In this document: in pieces, positions 48,665 to 62,965 of the stretch
Position numbering within the stretch: the stretch's first letter is position 1
Layout of the letters: each line of letters starts with the position of its first letter
Assembly (NCBI RefSeq): GCF_016653315.1
Contig: NZ_NHSH01000057.1
Location: forward strand, 1 to 64,000
From: Halochromatium roseum
GTDB taxonomy: Bacteria > Pseudomonadota > Gammaproteobacteria > Chromatiales > Chromatiaceae
Reading direction: 5' to 3'
DNA length: 64,000 nucleotides
The notes under the pieces: model-generated
Seen by the model: only the letters and a program-made list of their open reading frames with translations
Databases searched by the model: none
What the model was told of the DNA's origin: nothing
Translations under genes and position numbers: made by a program

Positions 48665-49693
48665 CTAGCGCGACGGCGGTGCCTTTGGTATCGCTAGGTT
48701 CGCCAGCCATTGACGTTGTTGCTCTTTACGGCGGCGCTGTTCGAGCGCGGTATGGATGCGCTGGCGAACCGCGGCGAACGGCAGCGTCTTGGCGGGATGG
48801 ATGGCCTCGCAAAGCACGATGTGGAAGCCGAGTTCGGACTCGAGCACGCCGCTGAGCTGTCCTGCCGCAAGCGCGAATAACGCGGAATCGAGGGCGGGAT
48901 AGAGCTGGCCGCGGTTGAGCCTGCCAAGCTGGCCGCCTTCCATCGCGGTTGGGCATTCGGAGCCTTTGCGGGCTTCGTCGATAAAGGCGTTGAGCAGGGC
49001 GGCTGGGGCATCGGCCTGGACGCGTTCCGGGACAGTGTTGGTCTGGTTGCGACCCTGAGTGTGGGTTTGGGCGCTGGCCTGGTTGCGTTTCTGCGTGCGG
49101 GCTTGGGCGCTGGCCTGTGCTCGCAGGCGCTCGCTGATGGCCACGATGCGTGCGCGTGCGGCACCGCGGCTGTTCTCAGGATAGTCGTCGTTAATCGTGA
49201 TCAGGATGTGGCGTGCGCTGCGGGTCTCGGGGGAGTCGAAGCGCTCGCGATGCAACTCGTAGAAGAGCCGTTCATCGGCGTCGGTGATCGGCGCATGGCG
49301 TGCACCGACGCGCTGCATTACGGCATCGAAGATCAGCTCGCGACGCAAGGCTTGGCGCAGCTCTCGGCTGTTGAGACCATTACGCTTAAGGTCGGCCTCG
49401 AACTCGCTTTGGCTCTCGTAACGCTGCTTGACTTCTTGATAGGCGCGTTGGACCTGGGTATCGGGGATCAACACATCCAGCGCTTCGGTACTCTTCAAGA
49501 CCTGCTCTTCGAGGGCGAAGCTGCGTCTGGCTTGATGCTCGGCTTCGGCAAGCTCTTCGCGTGAGAGTGCTGGGATGTTGCGTTGGAAGCGGGCCGTTGC
49601 TGCGCGCAGCAGATGGTAGCGGTAGTGCTCGGGCTCGGCGTCCTGTTGACCGGACGCTGCGGGGTTGGGGGCAATGGCCTGCGATGCGCTCAT
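48665..49693 (-). CDS. nifM: Nitrogenase maturation peptidyl-prolyl isomerase NifM
   Basis: A parvulin-type isomerase needed to make active nitrogenase Fe protein (NifH). The 342 residues have an N-terminal helical SurA-like region with YRYHLLRAATARF and a C-terminal parvulin domain with ARHILITINDDYPEN, GGQLGRLNRGQLYPALDSALFAL and ELGFHIVLCEAI. Start: ATG 49693 overlaps the nifZ stop by 4 bases; the longer upstream frame is rejected. Unusual: the parvulin domain is interrupted near residues 198-230 by a duplicated QASAQARTQKRN-like 12-residue repeat. Confidence 0.92.
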   Translation of the reverse strand: MSASQAIAPNPAASGQQDAEPEHYRYHLLRAATARFQRNIPALSREELAEAEHQARRSFALEEQVLKSTEALDVLIPDTQVQRAYQEVKQRYESQSEFEADLKRNGLNSRELRQALRRELIFDAVMQRVGARHAPITDADERLFYELHRERFDSPETRSARHILITINDDYPENSRGAARARIVAISERLRAQASAQARTQKRNQASAQTHTQGRNQTNTVPERVQADAPAALLNAFIDEARKGSECPTAMEGGQLGRLNRGQLYPALDSALFALAAGQLSGVLESELGFHIVLCEAIHPAKTLPFAAVRQRIHTALEQRRRKEQQRQWLANLAIPKAPPSR

Positions 49694-50232
49694 GGGCTCT
49701 GCTCCGCGATGGCGGTCTGATTGCTGCGACTGAGGTCGTGCGTTGCGGTGACCGTAGACGGCGAGAAGGATTCTGGGGCTGGAGCGGGCTCGAGCGCGGA
49801 CTCCGGAACCTGCAACAGGCTGCAACCTGGGAAGAGGACATGGTAGGCGACCTCGCCGGTTTCCTCGGCCGTGGCTGGCCCGCGCAACACCTTGATCACC
49901 TCGCCGATGCGGCCTTGCTCGACCAGCACGCGCCCGCCGCGGCCGAGCGCAATCCGGGCGGCGACCTTTTCGCGCGACTCGAAACGACTCGGCGTCCAGG
50001 GGTCGCTGGCCGGCTGCAGTTCCTCCTCACGGCAGCCGACGATGCGATCGCCGTCGAGGAAATGCACGCTGTAGATGATCTGGTCCTGCAGAAAGGTGCC
50101 GACATCGCGGACATAGCCGGTGCTGCCGCGGCGCACCAGCAGAGTGCCGGTTGATTGGCCAGGGAAGGTGCCATCGTTGCGCAGATTGCGTAGCACCCGC
50201 ACCTCGTCGCCGTAGTCGTAGAGCGGCCGCAT
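49690..50232 (-). CDS. nifZ: Nitrogen fixation protein NifZ
   Basis: Involved in P-cluster maturation in the MoFe protein. The 180 residues hold the NifZ motifs YDYGDEVRVLRNLRNDGT and RRGSTGYVRDVGTFLQDQ in the first half, then a related segment with RVLVEQGRIGEVIKVLRGP. The C-terminal ~35 residues are low-complexity. The start codon overlaps the nifW stop by one base and its stop overlaps the nifM start (ATGA), so nifW-nifZ-nifM are tightly coupled. Confidence 0.94.
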   Translation of the reverse strand: MRPLYDYGDEVRVLRNLRNDGTFPGQSTGTLLVRRGSTGYVRDVGTFLQDQIIYSVHFLDGDRIVGCREEELQPASDPWTPSRFESREKVAARIALGRGGRVLVEQGRIGEVIKVLRGPATAEETGEVAYHVLFPGCSLLQVPESALEPAPAPESFSPSTVTATHDLSRSNQTAIAEQSP

Positions 50233-50699
50233 CAGAGGGGTTGCTCCGTTAGTGAAGCAGGCGCATTGCGGCTAGCGCTCGCGAGGAGCTGATCGAGGCC
50301 GACGTTGACCTGCCGCGGCGCGCGCATCTTAAAGACGCGGAAGACCTTTTCGGTGCGTGCATCGGAGCCGACGAAATCTTGGTAGGCGCCGTGCAGGAGG
50401 TCGGCATAGAGCCGATAGCGGGCAGCGGCGCTATCTGGCGGCTCGTCGATCTCGCCGAGGTAGTCGTGGAAGCGTTGCAGGATGTGTAACCGATTCACAT
50501 GCACGATGCTCGGCTCGAAGGTGACGCCGAAGTAGTCCAAAAAGTCTTCGGCGGTTTCGAGCTCGTCGAGATCAACCTCGAAGGCATCGATCGAGTCCGG
50601 GATCGGATGATTGAGCGTATCGGGCATCGGATTGGTCCTCGAATTCGTCTTCGAATTCGTCTTCGAATACAACAGTGTCGATGTGTTGAGGTCAGCCAT
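50232..50699 (-). CDS. nifW: Nitrogenase-stabilising/protective protein NifW
   Basis: Protects or assembles the MoFe protein. The NifW core is recognisable by LETAEDFLDYFGV, NRLHILQRFHDYL and FRVFKMRAPRQVNVGL. The 155-residue version beginning at 50699 (with GGAG) has an extra N-terminal stretch SKTNSKTNSRTN encoded by a tandem 12-mer; an alternative ATG at 50627 (MPDTLNHPI), preceded by GAGGA, would give a normal 131-residue protein. Both starts are plausible. Confidence 0.92.
   Translation of the reverse strand: MADLNTSTLLYSKTNSKTNSRTNPMPDTLNHPIPDSIDAFEVDLDELETAEDFLDYFGVTFEPSIVHVNRLHILQRFHDYLGEIDEPPDSAAARYRLYADLLHGAYQDFVGSDARTEKVFRVFKMRAPRQVNVGLDQLLASASRNAPASLTEQPL
50641..50668. repeat. 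Tandem 12-mers at the start of nifW
   Basis: Two perfect copies of GAATTCGTCTTC plus a partial third, coding for NSKTNSKTN-type residues at the NifW N terminus. Confidence 0.8.
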
Positions 50700-50793
50700 G
50701 GCGGTCTCCGTTATCGGGTCAAGGTCAATCTGGAATCGCGTGGTATCGGCTGCGCTCCATGCGCGGCGGTCTCAATCGCTCAATTTCAATCGC

Positions 50794-51384
50794 TCAATCG
50801 CCGAGCAGATGGACATTGCCACCGGCGTTGCTGATCTCTTCGCGCCGCACCGCCTTCTCGGCCCAGCTCAGCAGTTCGCTCGTGCCGAGCTGGTCCTTTT
50901 GATCGAAGGCGCGCACTGGGGCCAGTCGCTCGATCGCGGCCTGTGGTTGATGTTGGCGCAGGAGCAGCCAAGCCGCGCCCTTAAGCGCTAGGAGCAGAAA
51001 TCGGGTGCTGGTCATTGAGTGCTGCGCTGCCCGCTCCAGGTCGGCCTGTCTGAGCTGACGCCAGTCCTCGGTCAGGCCGAGCTGTCGGCTGCTCAGCAGG
51101 ATCGCGCGATCGGCCATCATCACCGCCTCGGCATAGCGGTGGCGGTAATAGAAGAACCGATAGAGCGCGACGATCACCGAGAGATGCTCAGGGGCCTTGA
51201 GGTAGGCGCGCAGTAGCGCCCATTCCGCACTGTCGACGGAGGTCAGCTCCAGATCATCCTCGGATGAGCCGTCGAGTGCCTGTGAGCGATACTGTTGGCC
51301 GCTCTCGTCGAGCAGCTGCTGGACAGCATCCGGCAGCGGCGTCTCGAAATACATCGCCTCGTTGTCGAGATCGAGCAGATCCAT
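50794..51384 (-). CDS. TPR-like protein in the nif operon, function unknown
   Basis: A 196-residue, mostly helical protein with no signal peptide. The middle shows TPR-like paired helices (YLKAPEHLSVIVALYRFFYYRHRYAEAVMMA, split around residue 75) and a second repeat (LALKGAAWLLLRQHQPQAAIERL). I recall similar unnamed proteins between nifV and nifW in other gammaproteobacteria. Position 26 bp after nifV and 94 bp before nifW, on the same strand, ties it to the nif operon. A scaffold role in nitrogenase maturation is a guess. Confidence 0.75.
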   Translation of the reverse strand: MDLLDLDNEAMYFETPLPDAVQQLLDESGQQYRSQALDGSSEDDLELTSVDSAEWALLRAYLKAPEHLSVIVALYRFFYYRHRYAEAVMMADRAILLSSRQLGLTEDWRQLRQADLERAAQHSMTSTRFLLLALKGAAWLLLRQHQPQAAIERLAPVRAFDQKDQLGTSELLSWAEKAVRREEISNAGGNVHLLGD

Positions 51385-51410
51385 GAGGGTGCCTTGGTCC
51401 CGGTATTGGC

Positions 51411-52586
51411 TCAGGCGAGCCGTCTCTGGCCGGTCGCCGCTGGGCTCCTGGTCTGTTCGAGGAACCGCCGCAGGTCGGTGCTGGCCGGTGCGCGCTTGGT
51501 TTCGGTGACGAAGCGGCGCAGCAGCGGTAGCACCCGCTCCGCCTGCATGGCGTTGATGTCGAGCTGCAGCAGTTGCTCGTAGGCGAGCCGGATCGCCTGG
51601 CGACCAGAATGCTTGCCGAGCACAATCTGATGCTGGCGGCCGACCTCTGCGGGGTCGATCCCCTGATAGTTCAGTGGGTCTTTGAGCAGGCCGTCGACAT
51701 GGATGCCCGCCTCGTGGGTGAAGACACCATCGCCGACCAGGCTCTTGTGCCAGCCGATGGCATGGCCGGAGGCCTGCTCGACGAGCTTGGATAAGGCCTC
51801 GAACCGGGTCAGGTCAACGCCCGTTGCGATCTTCTGCACATGCTTGAGCCCCATCACGACCTCTTCGAGCGCGGCGTTACCAGCGCGTTCACCAAGACCG
51901 TGCACGGTGGTGTTCACATGGGTGGCGCCGGCGCGCACCGCGGCCAAGGTGTTCGCCGTGGCCAGGCCAAGGTCGTCATGCGCGTGCATCTCAATCTCGC
52001 AGTCGCAGACGCTGGCGAGATCGCGGATGCGCTCGAAGGTGCCGAAGGGATCGAGTAGGCCGACGGTGTCGGCGAAGCGCAGCCGGCGTGCACCAGCCTG
52101 CTGCGCGGCCTCGGCGACCTGCCTGAGCCAGTCGGGATCGGCCCGCGAGGCATCCTCGCAGCCGATACCGACCTCGAGTCCTTGCTCACGCGCGATACGG
52201 ATCTCCCGGGCGATACAGTCGAGCACCCAGGTGCGGTCGCGGCCGAGCTTGCGGCTGATCTGCTGATCCGAGACCGGGATCGAGAGATCGACCAGATCGA
52301 CGCCGAGATCGATGCAGGCATCGATATCCGCACTGCACATGCGTCCCCAGACCATCAGGCGCGCGTTGAGCCCAAGGTCAGCGACGGCCCGGATCGAGTC
52401 ACGTTCGTCTTCGCCCATGGCTGGGATGCCGACCTCCAGCTCGGGCACGCCGAGGGCATCGAGCCCGCGTGCGATCGCCAGCTTCTCATCAAGCGAGAAG
52501 GCGACACCGGCCGACTGCTCGCCATCGCGCAGCGTGGTGTCGTTGATGCAGACCCATGGGGGCGTCGAAGTCTCGGTCAGCGACAT
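51411..52586 (-). CDS. nifV: Homocitrate synthase NifV
   Basis: Condenses acetyl-CoA and 2-oxoglutarate to homocitrate, the organic ligand of the FeMo cofactor. The 391-residue TIM-barrel protein has the HMGL/LeuA signature [18 protein letters not shown] near the N terminus, the metal-binding histidines in [15 protein letters not shown], and [22 protein letters not shown] 52586 follows GGAG by nine bases; the TTG at 52601 is less likely. First gene of nifV-orf-nifW-nifZ-nifM, with a sigma-54 promoter at 52684-52699 and a NifA site at 52785-52800. Confidence 0.95.
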
Positions 52587-52683
52587 CGGTCTGAACTCCA
52601 ATGGCGGATGGTACCGGAGGCAATGTCGGAGCAGCGTCGATCCTGCTGCTTCGGCATCGCCGGTTGCGCGTTATGCGCTTTTA

Positions 52684-52699
52684 TGCAAACCATGGGCCA
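52684..52699 (-). promoter_or_regulatory. Sigma-54 promoter of the nifV operon
   Basis: Minus strand TGGCCCATGGTTTGCA has the GG-N10-GC core and TTTGCA at -12. The predicted start is near 52673, 87 bases before the nifV ATG. A strongly AT-rich stretch (52700-52730) sits just upstream and could bind IHF, though no exact consensus is visible. Confidence 0.8.
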
Positions 52700-52784
52700 G
52701 ATTAATAAATCCTTTAAAATAAATGCCTTATCGATGTGGCGTCGAAGGTTTTGGAGCGACTGCGACTCATTGTGGCCCAGGGCG

Positions 52785-52800
52785 TGTCGCAGACCCGACA
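52785..52800. promoter_or_regulatory. NifA upstream activator site of the nifV operon (TGT-N10-ACA)
   Basis: TGTCGCAGACCCGACA fits the NifA consensus exactly. It lies about 85-100 bp upstream of the sigma-54 promoter, the usual range for NifA. Confidence 0.7.
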
Positions 52801-53107: not shown

Positions 53108-53695
53108 ATGCGAATACTGATCTATCTACCGATTATCCATAGCGCGGAGGAGTTGGGCGGGCTGGCCGGGACCGTTGCTCAGGCGCGGGCTAGCGCGGCC
53201 GCGCAGCAACAACATGAAGCGGCGATCAGCCTGGTCTGGGACCAGATCGAGCAGGTGTTGGAGTCGCTTCCAGTTGGCCCTTCAGGCTGGCGCCTCTACC
53301 AAGACGGCCTGCCGGTGTGTGGGCAGGAAAAGGCGATCGTCGACGAGCTTGCTGCCGGCGGCAGTCGCAATCACCGGCTCCTACAGCAGCTAATCGAGCG
53401 CGGTGCTGAACTCATGGGCACCGAGTCTGGCGACCTCTTGGTCGATGAATACCAACTGCAAAAACAGCTGCTTGCGATCAAAGTGCCGGATGCCGAGAAG
53501 GATGTCACGGCAGCGGCCTTATTGAGCCGGCGTGATGCCTGGATCGGTCATCGGATCAACCAGACGCTGCAGCAGGGTGAGGTGGGCATCCTCTTCATCG
53601 GACTGCTGCATAACGTCGAGGCCCACCTCGATGCCGATATTCAGCTGCGGTATCCGGTTGGCAAGCCGGCGCTCAGTGCGGCGGAGGTTCGATGA
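53108..53695 (+). CDS. Unknown protein at the head of the gas vesicle cluster
   Basis: Not recognised. The 195-residue protein starts with a hydrophobic strand (MRILIYLPIIHS), has a helical middle (GTVAQARASAAAQQQHE), and near the end a second buried-strand segment EVGILFIGLLHNVEAHL followed by IQLRYPVGKP. It looks like a cytoplasmic alpha/beta protein with no metal or nucleotide motif that I can see. The ATG at 53108 begins at the first strand; the frame upstream to 53009 has no support. Its stop overlaps the start of the NtrC-type regulator (ATGA), so it may act with that regulator. Confidence 0.7.
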   Translation: MRILIYLPIIHSAEELGGLAGTVAQARASAAAQQQHEAAISLVWDQIEQVLESLPVGPSGWRLYQDGLPVCGQEKAIVDELAAGGSRNHRLLQQLIERGAELMGTESGDLLVDEYQLQKQLLAIKVPDAEKDVTAAALLSRRDAWIGHRINQTLQQGEVGILFIGLLHNVEAHLDADIQLRYPVGKPALSAAEVR

Positions 53696-55161
53696 GCGCG
53701 GTTGCAGGCCCCGTCGAGGCCAGTCCGAAAGCCTTGATCGTCGATGATGATCAGGATCTTTGCGACATGCTGAGCCTGGTGCTCAGCCGTGGTGGCTTTG
53801 AGGTGCGCACGACCCACGACGGCAACAGTGCGCTGAGCTGTGTCAACCAGCGCATGCCTGATGTGATGTTACTGGATGTGAGGATGCCAGGGCCGGATGG
53901 GATGGAGGTGCTGCGGCGTGTGCACAGCAGTTATCCGCAACTGCCGGTGGTGATGATGACCTCGTTTGCCGGGGTGTCGCAGGCGGTCGAGGCCATCAAG
54001 GCTGGCGCCGCGGATTACCTGCCGAAGCCCTTCGATAACCGGCATGCGGTGAGCTTACTGAAGCAGGTGGTCAAGCAGGCTGAGGGCAGGGCGCTTGCCG
54101 GTGCCGCTAGCCAGGCATCGAGTGCCAGCGCCCAGATCAAGACCAACGCCAGCAAAGCGACCTCGCTGCAGAATCATCTCAGGGCGACGATGGGATCAAG
54201 CCCGCGCGTGCAGCGACTTGTGCGGGAGATGGCCGCGGTTGCTGAGACCAATTTCTCGGTGATCATCCAGGGCGAGACCGGCACCGGTAAGGAGCTTGTC
54301 GCGCGTACCCTGCATGCGTTTAGCGCCCGCTCGCAGGGGCCGTTTGTCGCGGTCGACTGCGGTGCCATCGCCGCGTCGCTGCTCGAGAGCGAGCTGTTTG
54401 GGCATGAGAAAGGCGCCTTCACCAGCGCCGATAGCCGCAGTATCGGCAAATTCGAGGCGGCCGCCGGTGGCACGCTGTTCTTGGATGAGATCGGCAACAT
54501 GCCACTGCAGGCACAGGCCTCGATGCTGCGGGTGCTGCAGGAGCGGGTGCTCTATCGGGTGGGCGGTCAGCAGCCGATCAAGATCGATTGCCGGGTGCTG
54601 GTGGCTACTCATGAGGATCTGCAGCAGGCCGTCGAGGACGGTCGTTTTCGCGAGGATCTCTGGTATCGGCTGAATGAGTTTCAGCTCTCTGTACCACCAC
54701 TACGTGAGCGGCGTGAAGACATCCTGCACCTCGCGGAGCAGTTTCGCCGCCAGGCCGAGATCGATCTGGCGAAGCCGGTGGGGGGCTTCTCCCCGGCTGC
54801 GCAGCAGCGCCTGCTGGCCTTCGGCTGGCCCGGTAATGTGCGCGAACTGCGAGCGGTGGTCAGGCGCGCCGCGCTGCTCGCCGAGGAGCAGATCGATGTT
54901 GAGCATATCCGGCTGCGGAGCCGAGACCGCTCGGTGTTGGCGGCGGCCGGTTCGCCGGTGACCGCCGCACAGGCGCTGCCCATCGGTGAGCGCTCGATGC
55001 GCGAGATCTTATTAGACAACAAGCAGCAATTGGAGCGTGCGCTCTTGGATAAAGCCCTGGGGTTGGCGCATGGCAATAAGGCCGAGGCGGCACGGCTGCT
55101 GCAAGTCGATTACAAGACGATCCATAACAAATTGAAACAATTCGGACTACAGCATCAGTGA
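53692..55161 (+). CDS. NtrC-type sigma-54 response regulator of the gas vesicle cluster
   Basis: A 489-residue enhancer-binding response regulator: receiver (1-~125, phospho-acceptor Asp in VMLLDVRMPGPDG), linker, sigma-54 AAA+ domain (~165-400) with Walker A GETGTGKE and Walker B LFLDEIGNM, and a C-terminal Fis-type helix-turn-helix (NKAEAARLLQVDYKTIHNKLKQFG). The sigma-54-contacting loop reads GAFTSA at 241-246 in place of GAFTGA. Because a consensus sigma-54 promoter precedes gvpA in the same cluster, I infer it is the gvp activator, paired with the kinase at 59617-61074. Confidence 0.9.
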   Translation: MSAVAGPVEASPKALIVDDDQDLCDMLSLVLSRGGFEVRTTHDGNSALSCVNQRMPDVMLLDVRMPGPDGMEVLRRVHSSYPQLPVVMMTSFAGVSQAVEAIKAGAADYLPKPFDNRHAVSLLKQVVKQAEGRALAGAASQASSASAQIKTNASKATSLQNHLRATMGSSPRVQRLVREMAAVAETNFSVIIQGETGTGKELVARTLHAFSARSQGPFVAVDCGAIAASLLESELFGHEKGAFTSADSRSIGKFEAAAGGTLFLDEIGNMPLQAQASMLRVLQERVLYRVGGQQPIKIDCRVLVATHEDLQQAVEDGRFREDLWYRLNEFQLSVPPLRERREDILHLAEQFRRQAEIDLAKPVGGFSPAAQQRLLAFGWPGNVRELRAVVRRAALLAEEQIDVEHIRLRSRDRSVLAAAGSPVTAAQALPIGERSMREILLDNKQQLERALLDKALGLAHGNKAEAARLLQVDYKTIHNKLKQFGLQHQ

Positions 55162-55167
55162 GGTGAA

Positions 55168-55689
55168 ATGATGACTGATCGATCGCAGGCGGGCGGTGGT
55201 ATCGAAGGTGTGCTGCATGGTCTCGGTGACCTGGTTGAGAAGCTAGGACAACTGGCCGAGACCGGTGAGCAGCTCAAGCGCAGTGGCCAGTTTGATCTGC
55301 AGTCCGATCATGGTCAGGACATGAAGGCCGTCTATGGGTTTTCAGTCAGGTTTGGTGCCGGCGGCGATGGCGCTACCGCCAGCGAGCCGAAGGTAGAGCC
55401 CTTTGGCAACGTGCGCCGCGATGAGCAAACCGGTGTCTCGGTGGTGCAAGAGGTGACCGAGCCGATGATCGATGTGTTCGATGAGCAGGACCACCTCAAG
55501 GTGGTCGCTGAGCTGCCGGGCATTGCCGATGAGGATGTCAAGCTGGAGCTGGACGAGGACATCCTGCTGCTGCAGGCCGAGCGTGGGGCAAAGAAGTACC
55601 GCAAGGAGATCCTGCTGCCGCGTGTCTGCGATCCGAACAAGCTGGCCTACAGCTGCCGCAACGGCATCCTCGAGATCCGCTTGACCTAA
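55168..55689 (+). CDS. Hsp20/alpha-crystallin-like protein (GvpH-like)
   Basis: A 173-residue small heat-shock protein. The first ~75 residues resemble the amphipathic front part of gas-vesicle-associated Hsp20 proteins (IEGVLHGLGDLVEKLGQLAETG), followed by an alpha-crystallin domain (VTEPMIDVFDEQDHLKVVAELPGIADEDVKLEL) that ends NGILEIRLT without the usual C-terminal IxI tail. It starts 6 bp after the regulator gene. Haloarchaeal clusters use an Hsp20-type GvpH, so a chaperone role in vesicle assembly is likely. Confidence 0.85.
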   Translation: MMTDRSQAGGGIEGVLHGLGDLVEKLGQLAETGEQLKRSGQFDLQSDHGQDMKAVYGFSVRFGAGGDGATASEPKVEPFGNVRRDEQTGVSVVQEVTEPMIDVFDEQDHLKVVAELPGIADEDVKLELDEDILLLQAERGAKKYRKEILLPRVCDPNKLAYSCRNGILEIRLT

Positions 55690-55747: not shown

Positions 55748-55760
55748 CATGGAGACAACG

Positions 55761-57896
55761 ATGCCCGAGCCTCTGAAGCTCAAGGTTGCCGAAGCCCTTC
55801 CCAAAGACGCTGGGCGCGGTTATGCGCGTCTCGATCCGGTCGATATCGACCGTCTCGGTTTACAGCTCGGCGATATCGTACAGATCAAGGGCGCGGGCAT
55901 GAGTGTCGCCAAGGTGATGCCGGCCTATCCGCAGATGCGTGGTCAGGGCTGTGTGCAGCTCGATGGCATCACGCGTAAAAATGCCGATGTGGCGGTGGAT
56001 GAGCAGGCGCTGGTGCAGCCGCTGCCTTGGCAGCCGGCGCGCCAGGTGGTGCTGATTCCCAATACGGTCAAGCCCGGAAAGCGCGATCTGGACTATATCG
56101 GCGGCCTGCTCGACGGGCTGCCAGTGGTCAAGGGTGATCTGGTGCGCGCCTCGCTGTTCGGTAGCCGATCGGCGGACTTTACCGTCGCCGACTGCGATCC
56201 GAGCGGGGCGGTGGTCATCAATCCGACCAGCTCGCTGGTGATTGGCAAGCGCAGTGGGAGCGCCACAGCAGCCCCGCCCAGCACCACCATGACCTACGAG
56301 GATGTCGGTGGCCTGCGCACTCAGGTACAGCGCATTCGCGAGATGATCGAGCTGCCGCTGCGTCATCCGCAGGTGTTCGAGCGGCTTGGCATCGATGCGC
56401 CCAAGGGCATCTTGCTGCATGGTCCGCCCGGCTGCGGTAAGACCCTGATTGCGCGCATCATTGCCCAGGAGAGCCACGCCAACTTCTTTAGCGTGAGTGG
56501 GCCTGAGATCGTGCATAAGTTCTATGGCGAGAGCGAGGCCCATCTGCGCAAGATCTTCGAGGAGGCGGCGCGCAAGGGGCCGAGCATCATCTTCATGGAT
56601 GAGATCGACGCTATTGCGCCGCGCCGCGATAAGGTGGTCGGCGATGTCGAGAAGCGGATCGTGGCGCAGCTGTTGGCGCTGATGGATGGCTTGACGCGGC
56701 GGCAGAATCTGATCGTGATCGCGGCGACCAACCTGCCGAATGCGATCGATCCGGCCTTGCGTCGGCCGGGCCGCTTCGATCGCGAGCTGGCGATCCCGAT
56801 CCCAGATCGCGATGGTCGCCGCGAGATCCTTGAGATCCATAGTCGCGGCATGCCGCTGAATGAGGATGTGGCGCTGGCGCAGCTGGCGGAGATCACCCAT
56901 GGCTTCGTCGGGGCGGATCTCGAGGCGCTGTGTCGTGAGGCGGCGATGAGCACCTTGCGCCGCCTGCTGCCAGATATCGGCGTCTCGCTGGCGGAGATGC
57001 CGATCGATCGGCTCGCCGGTGTGACCGTTGATATGGAGGATTTTGTCAATGCGCTGCGCGAGGTCGAGCCCTCGGCGATCCGTGAGCTGTTTGTCGAGGT
57101 GCCGGATGTGCGCTGGGACGATGTCGGCGGGCTGGATGCGATTCGACAGCGCTTGGTGGAGGCGGTCGAATGGCCGCTAAGCTATCCGCAGCTGTTTGAG
57201 CAGGCCGGCGTGCGGCCGCCGAAAGGGCTGTTATTGGCGGGGCCGCCCGGGGTGGGCAAGACCATGATCGCCAAGGCGGTGGCGAATGAGAGCGGGGTCA
57301 ACGTCATCGCCGTCAAGGGGCCGGAGCTGATGTCGCGCTACGTCGGTGAGTCTGAGGCCGGGGTGCGGGAGCTGTTTCATAAGGCGCGTCAGGCGGCGCC
57401 CTGCATCATCTTCTTAGATGAGGTGGATGCGGTGGTGCCGGCGCGCGGTGCGGGCGCGACCGATTCGCATGTGGCGGAGCGGGTGCTGAGTCAGTTCCTG
57501 GCCGAGCTGGACGGGCTGGAGGAGCTGAAGGGGGTGTTCGTGCTGGGCGCCACCAACCGCGCGGATCTGATTGATGCGGCCATGTTGCGCCCCGGTCGCT
57601 TCGATGAGGTGGTGGAGATTCCGCTGCCGGCCGAGCTGGATCGGCGCGCCATCCTGGCGGTGCATCTGCGTGGTAAGCCGGGGGCGGAGGCGGTGGATAT
57701 CGAACAGCTCGCGATCAGCACCGATGGCGCTAGCGGTGCTGAGCTGGCGGCGATCTGCAATCGCGCAGCGCTGCGGGCGATTCGCCGGGCCGTGGCGCAG
57801 GGCGGTGGTGATCCGCTGGCGGTGGCGGCGGTGCAGCTGGAGCGAGAGGACATCAACAGCGCGTTGCAGGATCTGATGGGCGCGGATGTCTGTTGA
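55761..57896 (+). CDS. CDC48/p97-type double AAA+ ATPase in the gas vesicle cluster
   Basis: A 711-residue ATPase with the archaeal VAT / eukaryotic p97 layout: N-terminal double-psi barrel (KLKVAEALPKDAGRGYARLD) and second N subdomain (~1-180), then D1 with Walker A GPPGCGKT at 221-228 and Walker B IIFMDEIDAI, and D2 with Walker A GPPGVGKT at 494-501 and Walker B IIFLDEVDAV. Both ATPase domains look intact. Such proteins unfold or remodel substrates. ATG 55761 is preceded by GGAGA; an upstream in-frame ATG at 55749 overlaps that site. Its stop overlaps the next gvp gene by one base. Confidence 0.93.
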   Translation: MPEPLKLKVAEALPKDAGRGYARLDPVDIDRLGLQLGDIVQIKGAGMSVAKVMPAYPQMRGQGCVQLDGITRKNADVAVDEQALVQPLPWQPARQVVLIPNTVKPGKRDLDYIGGLLDGLPVVKGDLVRASLFGSRSADFTVADCDPSGAVVINPTSSLVIGKRSGSATAAPPSTTMTYEDVGGLRTQVQRIREMIELPLRHPQVFERLGIDAPKGILLHGPPGCGKTLIARIIAQESHANFFSVSGPEIVHKFYGESEAHLRKIFEEAARKGPSIIFMDEIDAIAPRRDKVVGDVEKRIVAQLLALMDGLTRRQNLIVIAATNLPNAIDPALRRPGRFDRELAIPIPDRDGRREILEIHSRGMPLNEDVALAQLAEITHGFVGADLEALCREAAMSTLRRLLPDIGVSLAEMPIDRLAGVTVDMEDFVNALREVEPSAIRELFVEVPDVRWDDVGGLDAIRQRLVEAVEWPLSYPQLFEQAGVRPPKGLLLAGPPGVGKTMIAKAVANESGVNVIAVKGPELMSRYVGESEAGVRELFHKARQAAPCIIFLDEVDAVVPARGAGATDSHVAERVLSQFLAELDGLEELKGVFVLGATNRADLIDAAMLRPGRFDEVVEIPLPAELDRRAILAVHLRGKPGAEAVDIEQLAISTDGASGAELAAICNRAALRAIRRAVAQGGGDPLAVAAVQLEREDINSALQDLMGADVC

Positions 57897-58753
57897 TGAG
57901 AGAGCAGATGAGGATGCATGCCGCTAACCTGCATGCCGCTAACCTGCATGCCGCTAACCTGCATGCCGCTAATCTACCGGCAGCCGGCGAGGCCCTCTAT
58001 CTCTATGGGGTGGTGCGCGACGCCGAGCCAATGCGGTTGGATATGCCGGCAATGGATGCGATGCGGCCGTTGATGGCGCTACGCCATGCCGGTTTGACGG
58101 CGATTGTGAGCGTGGTGCCGCTAGCGGAGTTTCGTGGGCCGCAGGGCGAACAGAATCTCGCTGATCTCGGCTGGCTGGGGCCGCGCGCCTTGGCGCATGA
58201 GGCCGTGATCGAGCGCTTGATGACGCAATGCAGCGTCTTTCCGCTGCCGCTCGGCACCCTGTTTTCGTCGACCCAGGCGTTATGGGAGGCCTTGGATGCC
58301 CAGCGCCCGCAGATCGAAGCGGCCTTGGAGCGACTGCAGGGCTGTCGCGAGTGGGCGGTCCAGGGGCAATTGGATCGGGAGGCGGCATTGGATGCGCGGC
58401 TGGATGAGGCGATCGCGAGCGGGCGTTATGTGCCGGCGACCTCATTGGGGCGGCAGCATCTGGAGAAGCAGCGCCTGCGGCGTGAGCTGGCGCGCGATCT
58501 TGATGCTTGGCTGTTGACGCGCACCGCGCCTTTGGCTGAGACCTTGCGTCGGCAGTGTGCGGGCTTTTGTGAGCGGCGCCTCCTCGCCGATCAGGGATGG
58601 GTCTTCAATTGGGCGGTGCTGGTGCGGCAGCAGGAGACCGCGGACTTGCATCAGACCCTCGATGAGGCGCGTGCGATCTATAGGGTTTGGGGCTTGCGTC
58701 TGCTCTGTAAGGGGCCTTTGGCACCTTATAGCTTTTGTGGCGAGGCGTGCTGA
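57896..58753 (+). CDS. Gas vesicle protein GvpF/GvpL family (first copy)
   Basis: A 285-residue member of the GvpF/GvpL family, accessory proteins essential for early gas vesicle assembly, some of which bind GvpA. The family start is ALYLYGVVRDAE near residue 33; a second ferredoxin-like domain lies in the C-terminal half (WVFNWAVLVRQQETADLHQTLDEARAIY, split). The N terminus carries four HAANL repeats encoded by perfect 15-mers. ATG 57896 overlaps the ATPase stop by one base. Confidence 0.9.
   Translation: MREQMRMHAANLHAANLHAANLHAANLPAAGEALYLYGVVRDAEPMRLDMPAMDAMRPLMALRHAGLTAIVSVVPLAEFRGPQGEQNLADLGWLGPRALAHEAVIERLMTQCSVFPLPLGTLFSSTQALWEALDAQRPQIEAALERLQGCREWAVQGQLDREAALDARLDEAIASGRYVPATSLGRQHLEKQRLRRELARDLDAWLLTRTAPLAETLRRQCAGFCERRLLADQGWVFNWAVLVRQQETADLHQTLDEARAIYRVWGLRLLCKGPLAPYSFCGEAC
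57916..57975. repeat. Four tandem 15-mers (GCATGCCGCTAACCT)
   Basis: Four copies, the last with one change, in frame at the start of the first GvpF/L gene; each encodes HAANL, so copy changes would not shift the frame. Confidence 0.97.
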
Positions 58754-58760
58754 AACGGCC

Positions 58761-59624
58761 ATGGCACTCATGCTCTATTGCATTGGCGCCGATCTCGGCG
58801 CAATGCCGTCGCGGCGGTTGGCTGCGGATGAGACGGATGCGGCGCATGGGGCGACTGATGCAGCGAATGGGGCGATCGATGCATGGGATACCCCCTTGCA
58901 GACAGTCTCGGCGCATGGCTTGACGGCCTGGGTCGGCGAGATCGCAGAGGTGGCAAAAGATGCGCAAGCGGCACTCGCCTTCGGCCGCGTGATCGAGGCC
59001 TTGCATCAGAGGATGACCCTGATCCCGTTGCGTTATGGCTGCCTGTTTACCGATACCGCGGCCTTAGAGGCGCACCTAGGCGCACAGCAGCATCACTACA
59101 GGGCACTGCTCGAGGCGCTCAAGGGCTGCGTCGAGCTGAGTCTGCGGATTCCGGTGGCGACTGCGGAGGCTGGCTTGGATGCAGGCCCGGATGCAGGCCC
59201 GGATGCAGGCCTGGATGCGGGCTTGCGGATGGACTTGGGGCCGGCGAGGGACCAGGACTCCGACGAGGCAGCGGGTGCTGAGCTGCGGTCTGGATACTCC
59301 TATCTGCTTGAGCGCAAACGGAGGCTTGCCGCGGAGCAGGCAGCCGTGCGCGCGGCCGAGGCGCTCGATCAGCCGCTGACGGGCCTGGTGCGACGGCGCG
59401 ACATCGAATCGGGCTGGTTTGCGGGGCAGGCGATGGTCTCGACACATTATCTGGTGCCGCGGGAACAGTTGCAGCAGGTGGAGGCGGTGCTGCATGCAGC
59501 CGCGCTGCGCGGCGCTGCAGAGATCGGCTCCGCACCCTGGCTGTTGAGCGGGCCTTGGCCCCCCTATCATTTTGCTGCGCTCGCGGAACTCTCGCCAGCC
59601 GGCTCGACAGATCATCATGTCTGA
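58761..59624 (+). CDS. Gas vesicle protein GvpF/GvpL family (second copy)
   Basis: A 287-residue second GvpF/GvpL protein, different from its neighbour. It starts MALMLYCIGADLG, has the central segment VIEALHQRMTLIPLRYGCLF, YSYLLERKRRLAAEQ and the C-terminal GPWPPYHFA typical of the family. A DAG-rich repeat (residues ~138-153) from tandem 12-mers separates the two halves. It starts 7 bp after the first copy; the frame open from 58557 overlaps that gene and is rejected. Its end overlaps the kinase gene by 8 bp. Confidence 0.9.
   Translation: MALMLYCIGADLGAMPSRRLAADETDAAHGATDAANGAIDAWDTPLQTVSAHGLTAWVGEIAEVAKDAQAALAFGRVIEALHQRMTLIPLRYGCLFTDTAALEAHLGAQQHHYRALLEALKGCVELSLRIPVATAEAGLDAGPDAGPDAGLDAGLRMDLGPARDQDSDEAAGAELRSGYSYLLERKRRLAAEQAAVRAAEALDQPLTGLVRRRDIESGWFAGQAMVSTHYLVPREQLQQVEAVLHAAALRGAAEIGSAPWLLSGPWPPYHFAALAELSPAGSTDHHV
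59172..59219. repeat. Four tandem 12-mers inside the second GvpF/L gene
   Basis: Four copies of GGCCCGGATGCA with small changes, in frame, encoding GPDA/GLDA. Confidence 0.93.
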
Positions 59625-61074
59625 CCCTGGCGATCACGACAACCTACCCCTTGGCTATCAACAACTGCTCGATGGGATTCCCTCGACCGTCTTGTTGGTC
59701 AGTGAATCCTTGCGCATTTGTGCCGTCAATCAGCATTTTTTGGAGAAGAGCCGCCGCCGTGAGCGCGATACCATCGGCCGCCGGATTATGGAGGTCTTTC
59801 CGCGCGTCATCCTAGAGCGCACCGATCTGCAGACCAACATCAAGCAGGTCTTCCGCAGCGGCCAGCCGATGCGCGGGGAGCAGATGAGTTATCGTGCGCC
59901 GGGCATTTCCAGGCGGGTCTATTTCTACTCGATCGTACCCCTGTCCTGTGAGAACGGATCGAAGCGGGTGATGCTGTTCGTGGAGGATGTCAGCGAGCGG
60001 GCTCGCCTATCGGAAGAGGTGCGCCGGGTCGAGCGGCGTCTGGCATCGGTGGTCGAAAGCGCCAGTGATATCGTGCTCTCGACCGATAACGAGGGCCGCA
60101 TCCGCACCTGGAATACGGCCGCTGAGACCCTGACAGGATTATCGGCGGCTGATGTCTCCGGTCGCTGGTTTGCGCAGCTCTGTGCCGATGAAGACTGCGA
60201 GGAGGCCTCAAGGGTGCTGGCGCAGATCAAGGCCGGTAGCCAGTCGCAGACGGCGGAATGGCGATTGCCGACCGGCGCTGGACAGTCGCTGTTGGTGTCC
60301 TGGGTGTTCTCGGCGATGCGCGATGACTATGGCGAGATGATCGGCATGGTGGCGGTAGGGCGTGATCTCACCGAGCGGCGAGAGCTGGAGATGCATCTGC
60401 GCCAATCGCAAAAGCTGGCCGCACTCGGGGTGATGGCCGGTGGCATCGCACACGAGATCCGCAATCCCTTGTCAACCTGCTACTCCGCCGTGCAGTTTCT
60501 GGATGATCCGGATCTGGATGCGGATCTGCGCCGTGAATGCATCGATAAGATCAAGGCGAGTGTCGAAAAGGCCTCGGGCATCATTGAGAATCTGCTGCGC
60601 TTCGCGCGGCCCTCGGCCGATGATGAGATGCAGGAAATCGATCTCTGTGCCGTGCTACAGGATACGATCGACTTGGTTGCCAATCAGGTCAAGGTGCAGC
60701 AGATCAGTCTGACCTTGAGCCTTGAGGTTCCTCAGCTGCAGCTGCGGGGGATTCCGAATCTTCTGCAGCAGGTGTTCTTGAATCTGCTCTTGAACGCCAT
60801 TAATGCCATGCCGGATGGCGGCGAGCTGCGGGTTGAGCTGCGTCAGGTGCAGAACCTGGCCCTGGTTGATGTGACTGACACCGGTGTCGGTATTCCGAGC
60901 AGTGAGCTGCAGAAGATCTTTGATCCCTTCCATACGAGTCGACCGACACCAAACGGCACCGGGCTCGGGCTGTCGATCTGCTATTCCATCATCCAGCGCC
61001 ATCTCGGCTCGATCAGCGTGACCAGTCGAGTGGGTGAGGGAAGCACCTTTCGTGTTCAGTTGCCGATCCTGTGA
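59617..61074 (+). CDS. NtrB-like PAS histidine kinase of the gas vesicle cluster
   Basis: A 485-residue cytoplasmic sensor kinase. Two PAS domains (~10-125: LLDGIPSTVLLVSESLRI; ~140-255: VVESASDIVLSTDNEGRI) precede a kinase core with H-box GGIAHEIRNPLSTCYSAVQF (His near 283), N-box NLLLNAINAM, DTGVGIP, an F-box FDPFHTSR and GTGLGLSICYSII. No transmembrane helix, so it senses an intracellular signal. Overlaps the second GvpF/L gene by 8 bp. It is the obvious partner for the NtrC-type regulator at 53692 and for the stand-alone receiver that follows. Confidence 0.92.
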   Translation: MSDPGDHDNLPLGYQQLLDGIPSTVLLVSESLRICAVNQHFLEKSRRRERDTIGRRIMEVFPRVILERTDLQTNIKQVFRSGQPMRGEQMSYRAPGISRRVYFYSIVPLSCENGSKRVMLFVEDVSERARLSEEVRRVERRLASVVESASDIVLSTDNEGRIRTWNTAAETLTGLSAADVSGRWFAQLCADEDCEEASRVLAQIKAGSQSQTAEWRLPTGAGQSLLVSWVFSAMRDDYGEMIGMVAVGRDLTERRELEMHLRQSQKLAALGVMAGGIAHEIRNPLSTCYSAVQFLDDPDLDADLRRECIDKIKASVEKASGIIENLLRFARPSADDEMQEIDLCAVLQDTIDLVANQVKVQQISLTLSLEVPQLQLRGIPNLLQQVFLNLLLNAINAMPDGGELRVELRQVQNLALVDVTDTGVGIPSSELQKIFDPFHTSRPTPNGTGLGLSICYSIIQRHLGSISVTSRVGEGSTFRVQLPIL

Positions 61075-61097
61075 TAAGGGTCACAGCGGCTTGAGCA

Positions 61098-61505
61098 ATG
61101 CCCGAGGTCAGCGTCCTACTGGTCGATGACGAGCCCAATATTTGCTGGGCCATCAAGGCCCTCCTGCGTCCTCCAGGTTATCGGCTACTGAGTCTGAACA
61201 GCGGCTCAGAGGCCCTGTCGCGACTTCAGCAGGAGTCCTTCGAGCGCATCATTTTGGATGCCAAGCTCCAGGATATGAATGGGCTGGACTTGGCCGGGCG
61301 CATTCGCCTGCTCAATCCCAAGGCCTGGATTGTGCTGGTCTCGGCCTTCTATTACCGCGACGACCCGGCGGTGACCGCGGCCTTGAGCGAGGGCAGTATT
61401 CAGCGCTTCGTGGCTAAGCCTTTCTCGCATCAGGTGTTGCTGGACGCGCTCGATCCTGAACGGTCAGCGGCAGAGGGTGCTAGCGAGCCGCTTGCTAGCC
61501 GTTAA
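61098..61505 (+). CDS. Stand-alone receiver (CheY-like) protein
   Basis: A 135-residue receiver domain without output domain: VLLVDDEPNICWAIKALL, phospho-acceptor Asp54 (IILDAKLQDMNGLDL), VSAFYYRD and AKPF. Acidic residues, Asp54, the Ser in strand 4 and Lys are all present, so it should be phosphorylated. It follows the kinase by 23 bp. Roles could be a phosphate sink, a relay to the NtrC-type regulator or a second output. Confidence 0.9.
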   Translation: MPEVSVLLVDDEPNICWAIKALLRPPGYRLLSLNSGSEALSRLQQESFERIILDAKLQDMNGLDLAGRIRLLNPKAWIVLVSAFYYRDDPAVTAALSEGSIQRFVAKPFSHQVLLDALDPERSAAEGASEPLASR

Positions 61506-61532
61506 TAATTCTCAATCACTAGGGTTTGGTCG

Positions 61533-61556
61533 CCATACCTATGGAATCTGTTCCAT
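61533..61556. promoter_or_regulatory. Overlapping palindromes upstream of gvpA (candidate enhancer)
   Basis: ATGGAA-tctg-TTCCAT (61541-61556) is a perfect inverted repeat and overlaps CCATA-cc-TATGG (61533-61544). Dyads of this kind 110-130 bp ahead of a sigma-54 promoter are typical activator sites; the neighbouring NtrC-type regulator is the likely ligand. Confidence 0.65.
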
Positions 61557-61625
61557 GGTGTATCGATCAGTATATCAGCAGATGGTCCCGGTGAATGATG
61601 CCTATTTGGCCACCGAGTCTTTTTA

Positions 61626-61638
61626 AATCAATAGCTTG
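61626..61638 (+). promoter_or_regulatory. Consensus IHF site upstream of gvpA
   Basis: AATCAATAGCTTG matches WATCAA-N4-TTR at every position and lies in an AT-rich stretch, midway between the palindromic site and the sigma-54 promoter, where DNA bending would bring the activator to the polymerase. Confidence 0.7.
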
Positions 61639-61665
61639 TATTTTTTTTGTTACCTGCTCCGATCT

Positions 61666-61681
61666 TGGCCCATGCCTTGCT
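61666..61681 (+). promoter_or_regulatory. Sigma-54 promoter of gvpA
   Basis: TGGCCCATGCCTTGCT has GG and GC with exactly 10 bases between and TTGCT at -12. Transcription should start near 61692, 60 bases before the gvpA ATG. Confidence 0.85.
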
Positions 61682-61751
61682 CCCTTATCACTGACAGCGC
61701 AACCGCACTGTCTCTGAAGTCAAATGCGCTTTGCCGCATAGGAGTAGTTAC

Positions 61752-61970
61752 ATGGCTAACATCGCAAAATCCACTGACTCTTCAAGTCTGGCCGAAGTTG
61801 TTGATCGCATCCTCGACAAAGGTATCGTGGTTGATGCGTGGGTCAAGGTCTCGCTGGTTGGTATCGAGCTGCTCTCGGTCGAGGCCCGCGTCGTCGTGGC
61901 CTCGGTTGAGACCTACCTCAAATACGCTGAGGCCATTGGTCTGACCGCCAGCGCTGCAGCACCTGCCTGA
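61752..61970 (+). CDS. gvpA: Gas vesicle structural protein GvpA
   Basis: The main shell protein of the gas vesicle. The 72 residues contain the invariant core [39 protein letters not shown] and [15 protein letters not shown], forming the helix-strand-strand-helix of GvpA. AGGAG precedes the ATG at 61752; an in-frame ATG 21 bases earlier is not used. Only one gvpA copy lies in the window. Confidence 0.98.
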
Positions 61971-62086: not shown

Positions 62087-62965
62087 ATGAGCAAGATTTT
62101 AGATGAGATGACGCATCTGCGCAGCGATATCGATCGCGCGCGAGAGGGCCGCGCGCAGGCCCAGCAGGCGCGCTCCGAGCAGCTTGCGGACCAGGCATCG
62201 CTAGTAGAAGGCCTGCTCACCGGCTTTGCCGCGGCGCGCGCCGACCAGGGTGCGGCTGACCGCGCCGCACGTCAGCAGTTTCTCGCTGGCTTAGGGCAAG
62301 ATATCAACGCCTTGAGCCAAGGCGTGCGCGACATGATGCAGGATCTGCAGCAAGCCAGGACCGAGCAGGCGGCGGCTGCGGCCGAAGAGCGCCGCGCCCA
62401 GGTCGAGGCGATTGCCGATGACATTCGCGGGACGCTTGGCGAGTTCAAACAGTCGATGATCGCTTTTCGCTCCGATTACCTGGCATCCGTCGATGAGGAT
62501 GCTTCCGCGCGTGCTGGCTTTGTCGCTGAGACCGCGCGTCAGGTTGGCGATCTGCTGAATGGCTTCAAGCAGGAGCGCAGCCAACAGGCTGCCGCCGCTG
62601 CTCAGACGCGACTTGCTTTCATGCGGGATCTCAGCAGCCAGGTTGCCGCGATTCAGAACTCGGTGGCTGAGGATCTTGCTGGGGTGCGGCAGTTGTTTGG
62701 AGCAGCCTCTGAGTCCGCTGCTCGTTCAGCCAAGCCTGTATCGAACTCGGCGCGGGCAAAAAAGCCGGCTACCGCGCCAGCATCGCCAGCACCATCGGCC
62801 GCGCCAACCAAGCAGGCGGGGACGCATGAGCAAGCCCAGCCGGTGGCCGATGAGTCGGTGACCAATGGTGGCAAGGCTCCGGCAGCCGCACACAAGCCGA
62901 GGAAGTCAAGTGCTCACCAGGAAGCAAAGGCGAAAGCGTCGAAAGAATCGATAGCAGGCGACTGA
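62087..62965 (+). CDS. GvpC-like helical repeat protein
   Basis: A 292-residue, Ala/Gln/Arg-rich, wholly helical protein. About residues 20-205 contain four to five degenerate repeats of 33-41 residues, each with a pattern like RxxFLxxLxxxVxxLxxG...LQQAR (e.g. FLAGLGQDINALSQGVRDM, FVAETARQVGDLLNGFKQE, FMRDLSSQVAAIQNSVAED), recalling cyanobacterial GvpC, which strengthens the vesicle from outside. A Lys/Ala/Pro/Ser tail (~215-292) follows. GAGGAGA precedes the ATG, and the gene sits between gvpA and gvpN, the classical gvpC place. Sequence similarity to known GvpC is by pattern only. Confidence 0.7.
   Translation: MSKILDEMTHLRSDIDRAREGRAQAQQARSEQLADQASLVEGLLTGFAAARADQGAADRAARQQFLAGLGQDINALSQGVRDMMQDLQQARTEQAAAAAEERRAQVEAIADDIRGTLGEFKQSMIAFRSDYLASVDEDASARAGFVAETARQVGDLLNGFKQERSQQAAAAAQTRLAFMRDLSSQVAAIQNSVAEDLAGVRQLFGAASESAARSAKPVSNSARAKKPATAPASPAPSAAPTKQAGTHEQAQPVADESVTNGGKAPAAAHKPRKSSAHQEAKAKASKESIAGD

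Follow-up and report, generated by a model that had tools for sequence, protein, structure and literature searches.

Gas-vesicle cluster and the region upstream of gvpA

The window (the whole stretch of DNA analysed, 64,000 nucleotides) covers positions 1 to 64,000 of a 404-kb contig of Halochromatium roseum, whose whole genome (G000) is 5.2 Mb. The plus strand carries, in order, gvrA, gvpH, a gene for a CDC48-type ATPase, two gvpF/L genes, gvrB, gvrC, gvpA, an open reading frame (ORF) without Pfam match and gvpN; the order gvrA-H-Z-F2-F3-B-C adjoining gvpA is present, and more gvp genes are located beyond the window end. The features are as follows.

53692–55161, + strand: gvrA, NtrC-type activator with receiver, sigma-54 AAA+ domain with GAFTSA loop, and Fis-type helix-turn-helix with VDYKT (domain matches)
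55168–55689, + strand: gvpH, Hsp20-like (family match)
55749–57896, + strand: gvpZ-type CDC48 AAA+ ATPase (domain matches; gvpZ assigned by position)
57893–58753, + strand: gvpF/L family member (family match; gvpF2 assigned by position)
58761–59624, + strand: gvpF/L family member (family match; gvpF3 by position; ORF 58557–59624, start placed at the in-frame ATG preceding the family match)
59617–61074, + strand: gvrB, PAS histidine kinase (ORF opens at 59572; likely start 59617)
61098–61505, + strand: gvrC, stand-alone receiver (domain match)
61533–61544, no strand: second dyad CCATA-CC-TATGG, an extra half-site overlapping the next feature (read from the sequence)
61541–61556, no strand: probable GvrA operator (upstream activating sequence) ATGGAA-N4-TTCCAT; extended form TATGGAANNNNTTCCATGG at 61540–61558
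61626–61638, + strand: IHF-type site AATCAATAGCTTG, centre 34 bp upstream of the -24 element
61666–61681, + strand: -24/-12 sigma-54 promoter TGGCCCATGCCTTGCT, 10/12 consensus positions
61691–61693, + strand: predicted gvpA transcription start, 11–13 nt after the GC at 61679–61680 (promoter rule)
61693–61712, + strand: possible stem-loop at the predicted 5' end of gvpA mRNA
61740–61744, + strand: AGGAG ribosome-binding site of gvpA (read from the sequence)
61752–61970, + strand: gvpA, major gas vesicle protein, 72 aa (PF00741, NF006874)
62087–62965, + strand: ORF, no Pfam match at E 0.001 (profile search)
63094 to past the window end, + strand: gvpN

A preliminary description of this DNA had placed an NtrC-type regulator, a PAS histidine kinase and a lone receiver in the gvpA cluster, and domain matches confirmed all three. 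RpoN, IhfA and IhfB are all encoded in the genome. A 195-aa ORF without Pfam match (53108–53695) extends into the beginning of gvrA; the gvr operon may start with this ORF. The cluster is flanked on the opposite strand by genes for nitrogen fixation, with nifV, nifW and nifZ at one end and nifS and nifU at the other (49690–52601; L004:15084–17804); the cluster of genome G119 is likewise surrounded by nifV, nifW and nifS/nifU, and that of G098 by at least nifS. A perfect CRP-like site, TGTGATAAGGGTCACA, is located at 61070–61085 between gvrB and gvrC; it is retained in the two closest relatives and absent in G137.

Sites were scored against the consensus sequences for sigma-54, IHF, NifA and CRP. 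Sigma-54 promoters have GG and GC elements 10 bp apart in a TGGCAC-N5-TTGC-like sequence. The dyad, the IHF site and the promoter reported from the sequence were all found at their positions preceding gvpA, the promoter with 10 of 12 consensus positions. Its score was reached in approximately 3.7% of shuffles of the 500 bp upstream of gvpA; nine sites with the same score were located on both strands of the window, and TGGC-N7-TTGC occurred 9 times against 3.77 expected. Because this score is modest in the window alone, relatives were examined: by itself the predicted promoter is modest evidence, and conservation makes the sequence-based case for it strong.

The dyad arms ATGGAA (61541–61546) and TTCCAT (61551–61556) are 100% complementary and 4 nt apart. 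The element had been called a 16-bp perfect palindrome; the 6-bp arms are indeed perfect, but the four central bases are unpaired and 12 of the 16 positions are palindromic. The overlapping second dyad is present as described, with 5-bp arms, and is kept in G098 and G119 and altered in G137. Among 300 shuffles of the same 500-bp upstream region, none reached the score of the main dyad. Across the 5.2-Mb genome the perfect dyad occurs in a single place, before gvpA, and no second site with fewer than two mismatches to the extended form was found. Relaxing the search did not reveal a wider GvrA regulon in this genome, the 71 sites at three or fewer mismatches (62 in the reversed control) being background. 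The loose pattern GGAA-N4-TTCC, 96–126 nt, TGGC-N8-TGC was also rejected as a regulon finder; it gave 52 matches against 23 in the reversed control over 22 gas-vesicle genomes and 1 against 2 in G000, so only the full dyad discriminates.

The IHF consensus WATCAANNNNTTR is matched perfectly at 61626–61638, as had been noted. Two matches were found in the 64-kb window against 0.43 expected, and two or more were seen in 10 of 100 shuffles.

Downstream of the predicted start, 95.8% of the cells of the stem-loop were paired and two pairs showed compensatory change (six genomes; G108, in which the stem does not fit, G098 and G119 were excluded from the count), the number of compensatory pairs being no higher than in shuffles (290/500). 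A C-A mismatch is present in the stem of two sequences, the window's among them, and the window's gvpA leader folds just slightly better than shuffles (z -1.02). The stem-loop is perhaps a stabiliser of the mRNA, with weak support in the window itself. A known RNA element in the leader was sought and rejected, with no Rfam match in four loci. Genera g35 and g23 (L065, L066, L069 and L077) have the promoter 155–197 nt before gvpA and therefore long leaders, in which some blocks look conserved by eye; three such loci gave no Rfam match.

Conservation in the Chromatiaceae and association with GvrA

From the larger family 194 genomes were drawn, and GvpA was found in 22 of them, the window's included. 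These yielded 30 gvpA loci (L061–L090, including the window's own), several copies coming from some genomes. The -24/-12 element scored at least 10/12 at 27 of the 30 loci. The dyad scored at least 11/12 at 22, and at 26 a dyad of at least 9/12 lies upstream of the promoter, which upholds the conservation of promoter and dyad predicted for related Chromatiaceae; being related, the family loci are not independent. The four misses comprise an internal gvpA copy within a tandem array and three g59 loci, whose genomes have no close GvrA. Four family dyads at 9/12 or 10/12 are spaced 115–116 bp from the promoter; the 9/12 score of L065, L066 and L083 was reached in 22–28% of shuffles.

Spacers were measured at 26 loci (L080, L081, L082 and L084 were left out; the upstream region of L081 had been defined with a start codon 12 nt inside the gene). 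The distance from the dyad centre to the -24 G was 115–119 bp in 21 of the 26, and 127, 128 and 138 bp (three loci) or 271 bp (two loci) in the remainder. The distances of 127, 128 and 138 bp correspond to 117 bp plus about one or two helical turns of 10.5 bp, and 271 bp does not fit. Between genera the upstream DNA outside the elements looks largely dissimilar by eye. Alignment of the members of the window's genus shows the dyad, the IHF site and the promoter core retained while much of the spacer has diverged, most clearly in G137, the dyad of which has two changed arm positions.

Conservation had also been expected of the IHF site, and here the outcome was divided. The site is perfect (9/9) and 33–34 bp upstream of the -24 element in 4/4 members of the window's genus, but in genus g38 a match of at least 8/9 was found in just 1/5. 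For 10 of the 17 loci in g35 and g23 the best match is on the opposite strand, 46–47 bp upstream, and scores 7/9 or 8/9 in most cases. Across the family, 8/9 or better was reached in 11 of 26 spacers, where 2.8 would be expected. Judged by these matches, IHF is likely to act in the window's genus, and its part in other genera is uncertain.

Perfect dyads were located at 35 places in 15 of the 22 genomes (reversed control, 2). Of these, 28 precede gvpA, namely 27 listed genes and one cut by a contig end. Three precede short ORFs that look homologous (L136, L137, L138; L189:2894–3136), the Thiodictyon one being annotated as 80 aa (WP_100923246.1) and lacking a Pfam match, and one precedes a coiled-coil ORF without Pfam family, which from its sequence may be read as GvpC-like. 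At the contig-edge gvpA, the three short ORFs and the GvpC-like ORF, a -24/-12 element (9/12 to 12/12) follows at 115–117 bp. The perfect dyads L135, L139 and L140 have neither a gvp gene nor a promoter at the usual spacing; that of L139 has a 10/12 match at 354 bp. A solitary gvpA on the Thiodictyon plasmid pTs485 has the dyad at 12/12 and the promoter at 11/12, spaced 117 bp, and no gvr gene is annotated in the 10-kb stretch examined around it; none is annotated in the neighbourhood of the Thiodictyon 80-aa ORF.

These results bear on how gvpA of the window is transcribed. The preliminary description had argued against a housekeeping promoter, and this is favoured by a crude scan of 53.2–63.0 kb, in which no sigma-70-like site was found. 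The claim is weakened by the position of gvrC, located on the same strand with its end 246 bp from gvpA; a search between the two genes gave no terminator-like site, and some read-through from the upstream gvr operon is therefore possible. That gvpA is expressed mainly by such read-through, or from an unrecognised sigma-70 promoter, with the sigma-54 elements of minor importance, is nevertheless most unlikely in our estimate: the dyad, promoter and spacing are conserved, and the solitary plasmid gene has the same module. In the text available for Serratia sp. ATCC 39006, in which the gene order is different, read-through between the two operons was undetectable (PMC4982088).

A GvrA of 48–100% identity was found in 19 of the 22 gas-vesicle genomes, and in 16 of them its gene shares a contig with a listed gvpA. 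The three g59 genomes have distant NtrC-type matches only (39–43% identity) and no dyad in place; the -24/-12 element of one g59 locus, L082, still scores 10/12, and no gvr genes were found in 19.5 kb around gvpA of one g59 genome. The recognition helix VDYKT or IDYKT is common to the GvrA orthologues, and GRNT occupies this place in the five NtrC-type paralogues inspected. The sigma-54-contacting loop is GAFTSA in 4/4 genomes of the window's genus and GAFTGA or GAYTGA in the remaining orthologues inspected, a departure that weighs against activation by GvrA. In NorR, serine at the same loop position gave signal-independent activity, according to the portion of the report available (PMC2941729), so, speculatively, GAFTSA need not abolish activation and might loosen control.

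A real -24/-12 promoter could be worked by another activator (NtrC, NifA or a further protein) while GvrA acts elsewhere. Candidates are at hand: counting GvrA, 10 NtrC-type matches at E 1e-60 or better were found in the genome, and the cluster sits among nif genes. One of these, nifV, has a separate -24/-12 match (minus strand, TGGCCCATGGTTTGCA, within 52684–52800) and, approximately 95 bp upstream of it, a TGT-N10-ACA NifA-type site. Upstream of gvpA, however, no TGT-N10-ACA occurs between 61086 and the gene, the nearest (61070–61085) being approximately 600 bp upstream of the promoter, and control by NifA was rejected. The dyad is also unlike an NtrC site, and within the family it tracks the presence of GvrA. 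Activation by a protein other than GvrA is accordingly considered highly unlikely.

The unlikeness to NtrC-type sites would also suit a dyad bound by a repressor or a global regulator and not a GvrA enhancer. Its tracking of GvrA in the family speaks against such a regulator, as does its position 115–119 bp upstream of the promoter, which fits an enhancer. Direct repression of gvpA does have a precedent, the quorum-sensing regulator SmaR having been described as repressing a Serratia gvpA1 reporter directly in the text available (PMC4982088). We regard a repressor or global-regulator site as very improbable and retain the GvrA operator as the preferred reading of the dyad.

Loci outside the family

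A broad survey of genome contigs gave at least 55 gvpA loci, of which 8 were without usable upstream sequence and 47 were usable; two of the 47 are family loci (L008/L071 and L015/L085 are apparently the same records). Among the matches listed, a -24/-12 element of at least 10/12 was present at 6/9 loci with a DYKT/GAFTGA-type GvrA and 5/38 without (Fisher p 0.0026), and a dyad of at least 11/12 at 4/9 and 4/38, respectively (Fisher p 0.033). The exceptions lacking GvrA are loci cut by contig ends, and one of them, L027, has a more distant GvrA. Perfect dyads at gvpA were found, among the matches listed, in a Desulfobacterales metagenome-assembled genome (MAG; L006), two Desulfomonile MAGs (L011 and L012) and a Phycisphaerales MAG (L022). 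Methylumidiphilus L013 has a perfect dyad at gvpA and no good -24/-12 element. Dyad-promoter distances outside the family (128, 131, 150, 206, 259 and 368 bp) show no common phase.

In G329, of the same class and with Serratia-like operon order, the promoter scores 12/12, GvrA shows 44% identity, and two imperfect dyads can be seen in tandem by eye. The gvpA loci of a Spartinivicinus plasmid, G322 and G230 have no GvrA in the stretch read and neither dyad nor -24/-12 element, and L039 and L049, with a more distant GvrA, have neither dyad nor promoter. Universality of the operator was rejected: plasmids of Methylocella and Methylosinus combine GvrA with a -24/-12 element but lack the dyad, and L007 and L010 bear GvrA without a dyad. 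Regulators of Bacteroidales or Bacteroidia type near gvpA (L032, L033 and L038) were also set aside, being without GAFTGA, and the gvpA upstream regions there are without -24/-12. The candidate docking sequence is conserved before gvpA in many, not all, other floating bacteria.

Proposed control of gvpA and comparison with known systems

Conservation in relatives and the Serratia 39006 precedent, as far as the available texts describe it (PMC4982088, PMC11778176), support the two-component, sigma-54 control of gvpA put forward initially. With considerable confidence we propose that gvpA is under a GvrA-activated sigma-54 promoter, with GvrA bound at the dyad, a bend induced by IHF, and control by GvrB and GvrC. 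Sigma-54 RNA polymerase would transcribe gvpA from the -24/-12 element at 61666–61681. The state of GvrA would be set by GvrB, a PAS kinase, and GvrC, a lone receiver; GvrA would bind the dyad at 61541–61556 and form a ring; IHF at 61626–61638 would bend the spacer DNA, and GvrA would loop across approximately 118 bp and open the polymerase complex. Transcription of gvpA would begin near 61692, where the small stem-loop has its foot. We infer that the dyad is occupied by GvrA, that this activator is phosphorylated by GvrB and that IHF has this role at gvpA; by analogy, the signal may be low oxygen or another redox cue.

The operator may also have a wider significance. We lean, somewhat beyond even chances, towards TATGGAA-N4-TTCCATRG as a GvrA operator that gvpA promoters have in common across purple sulfur bacteria, a Phycisphaerales MAG and several MAGs of deltaproteobacteria. 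In purple sulfur bacteria, where its spacing from the promoter is almost constant and may follow the helical phase, it would form a portable cassette, by which Thiodictyon-type solitary gvpA copies (one plasmid-borne), the GvpC-like gene and the gene for the 80-aa protein would answer to one GvrA in trans. The results for gvpA as a whole suggest that flotation in purple sulfur bacteria, and in other groups too, is under the sigma-54/GvrA control described from one enterobacterium. They also provide a concrete candidate operator that can be searched for in genomes and would help define the flotation regulon, including unlinked, uncharacterised genes.

Promoters of the NtrC/NifA type with IHF resemble the window in the order of enhancer, IHF site and -24/-12 element, and their activators have the receiver-AAA-HTH arrangement of GvrA. 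The window differs from these systems in its distinct operator, a DYKT and not a GRNT helix, and one close match to the dyad in the genome.

Literature on gas-vesicle control by sigma-54, NtrC and RpoN was searched for a GvrA operator and no description was found; the search terms were leaky, and subscription papers, supplements and theses fell outside its scope. A purple sulfur bacterium, Candidatus Thiodictyon syntrophicum Cad16T, is already recorded as having GvrA and GvrC homologues (PMC5944118). That account, in the text available, names no promoter or operator, and the module at the solitary plasmid gvpA was found here.

The closest characterised system is that of Serratia sp. ATCC 39006. 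According to the available portions of the reports, its gvpA1 has a mapped start with a sigma-54 consensus and requires GvrA, GvrB and GvrC for expression (PMC4982088), and in an rpoN mutant gas vesicles were lost and gvpA1 transcription was reduced (PMC11778176). The same portions yielded no description of an operator or IHF site for Serratia. Both organisms have gvrABC; in the window the gvr operon is directly upstream of gvpA, in tandem, and the inverted operon order has been described for Psychromonas ingrahamii and Desulfomonile tiedjei (PMC4982088, text available in part). The sigma-54/GvrABC circuit is thus already known from Serratia 39006, as far as these texts go, and the system of the window adds another case, together with a dyad that is probably the binding site of GvrA and recurs at some deltaproteobacterial and Phycisphaerales loci.
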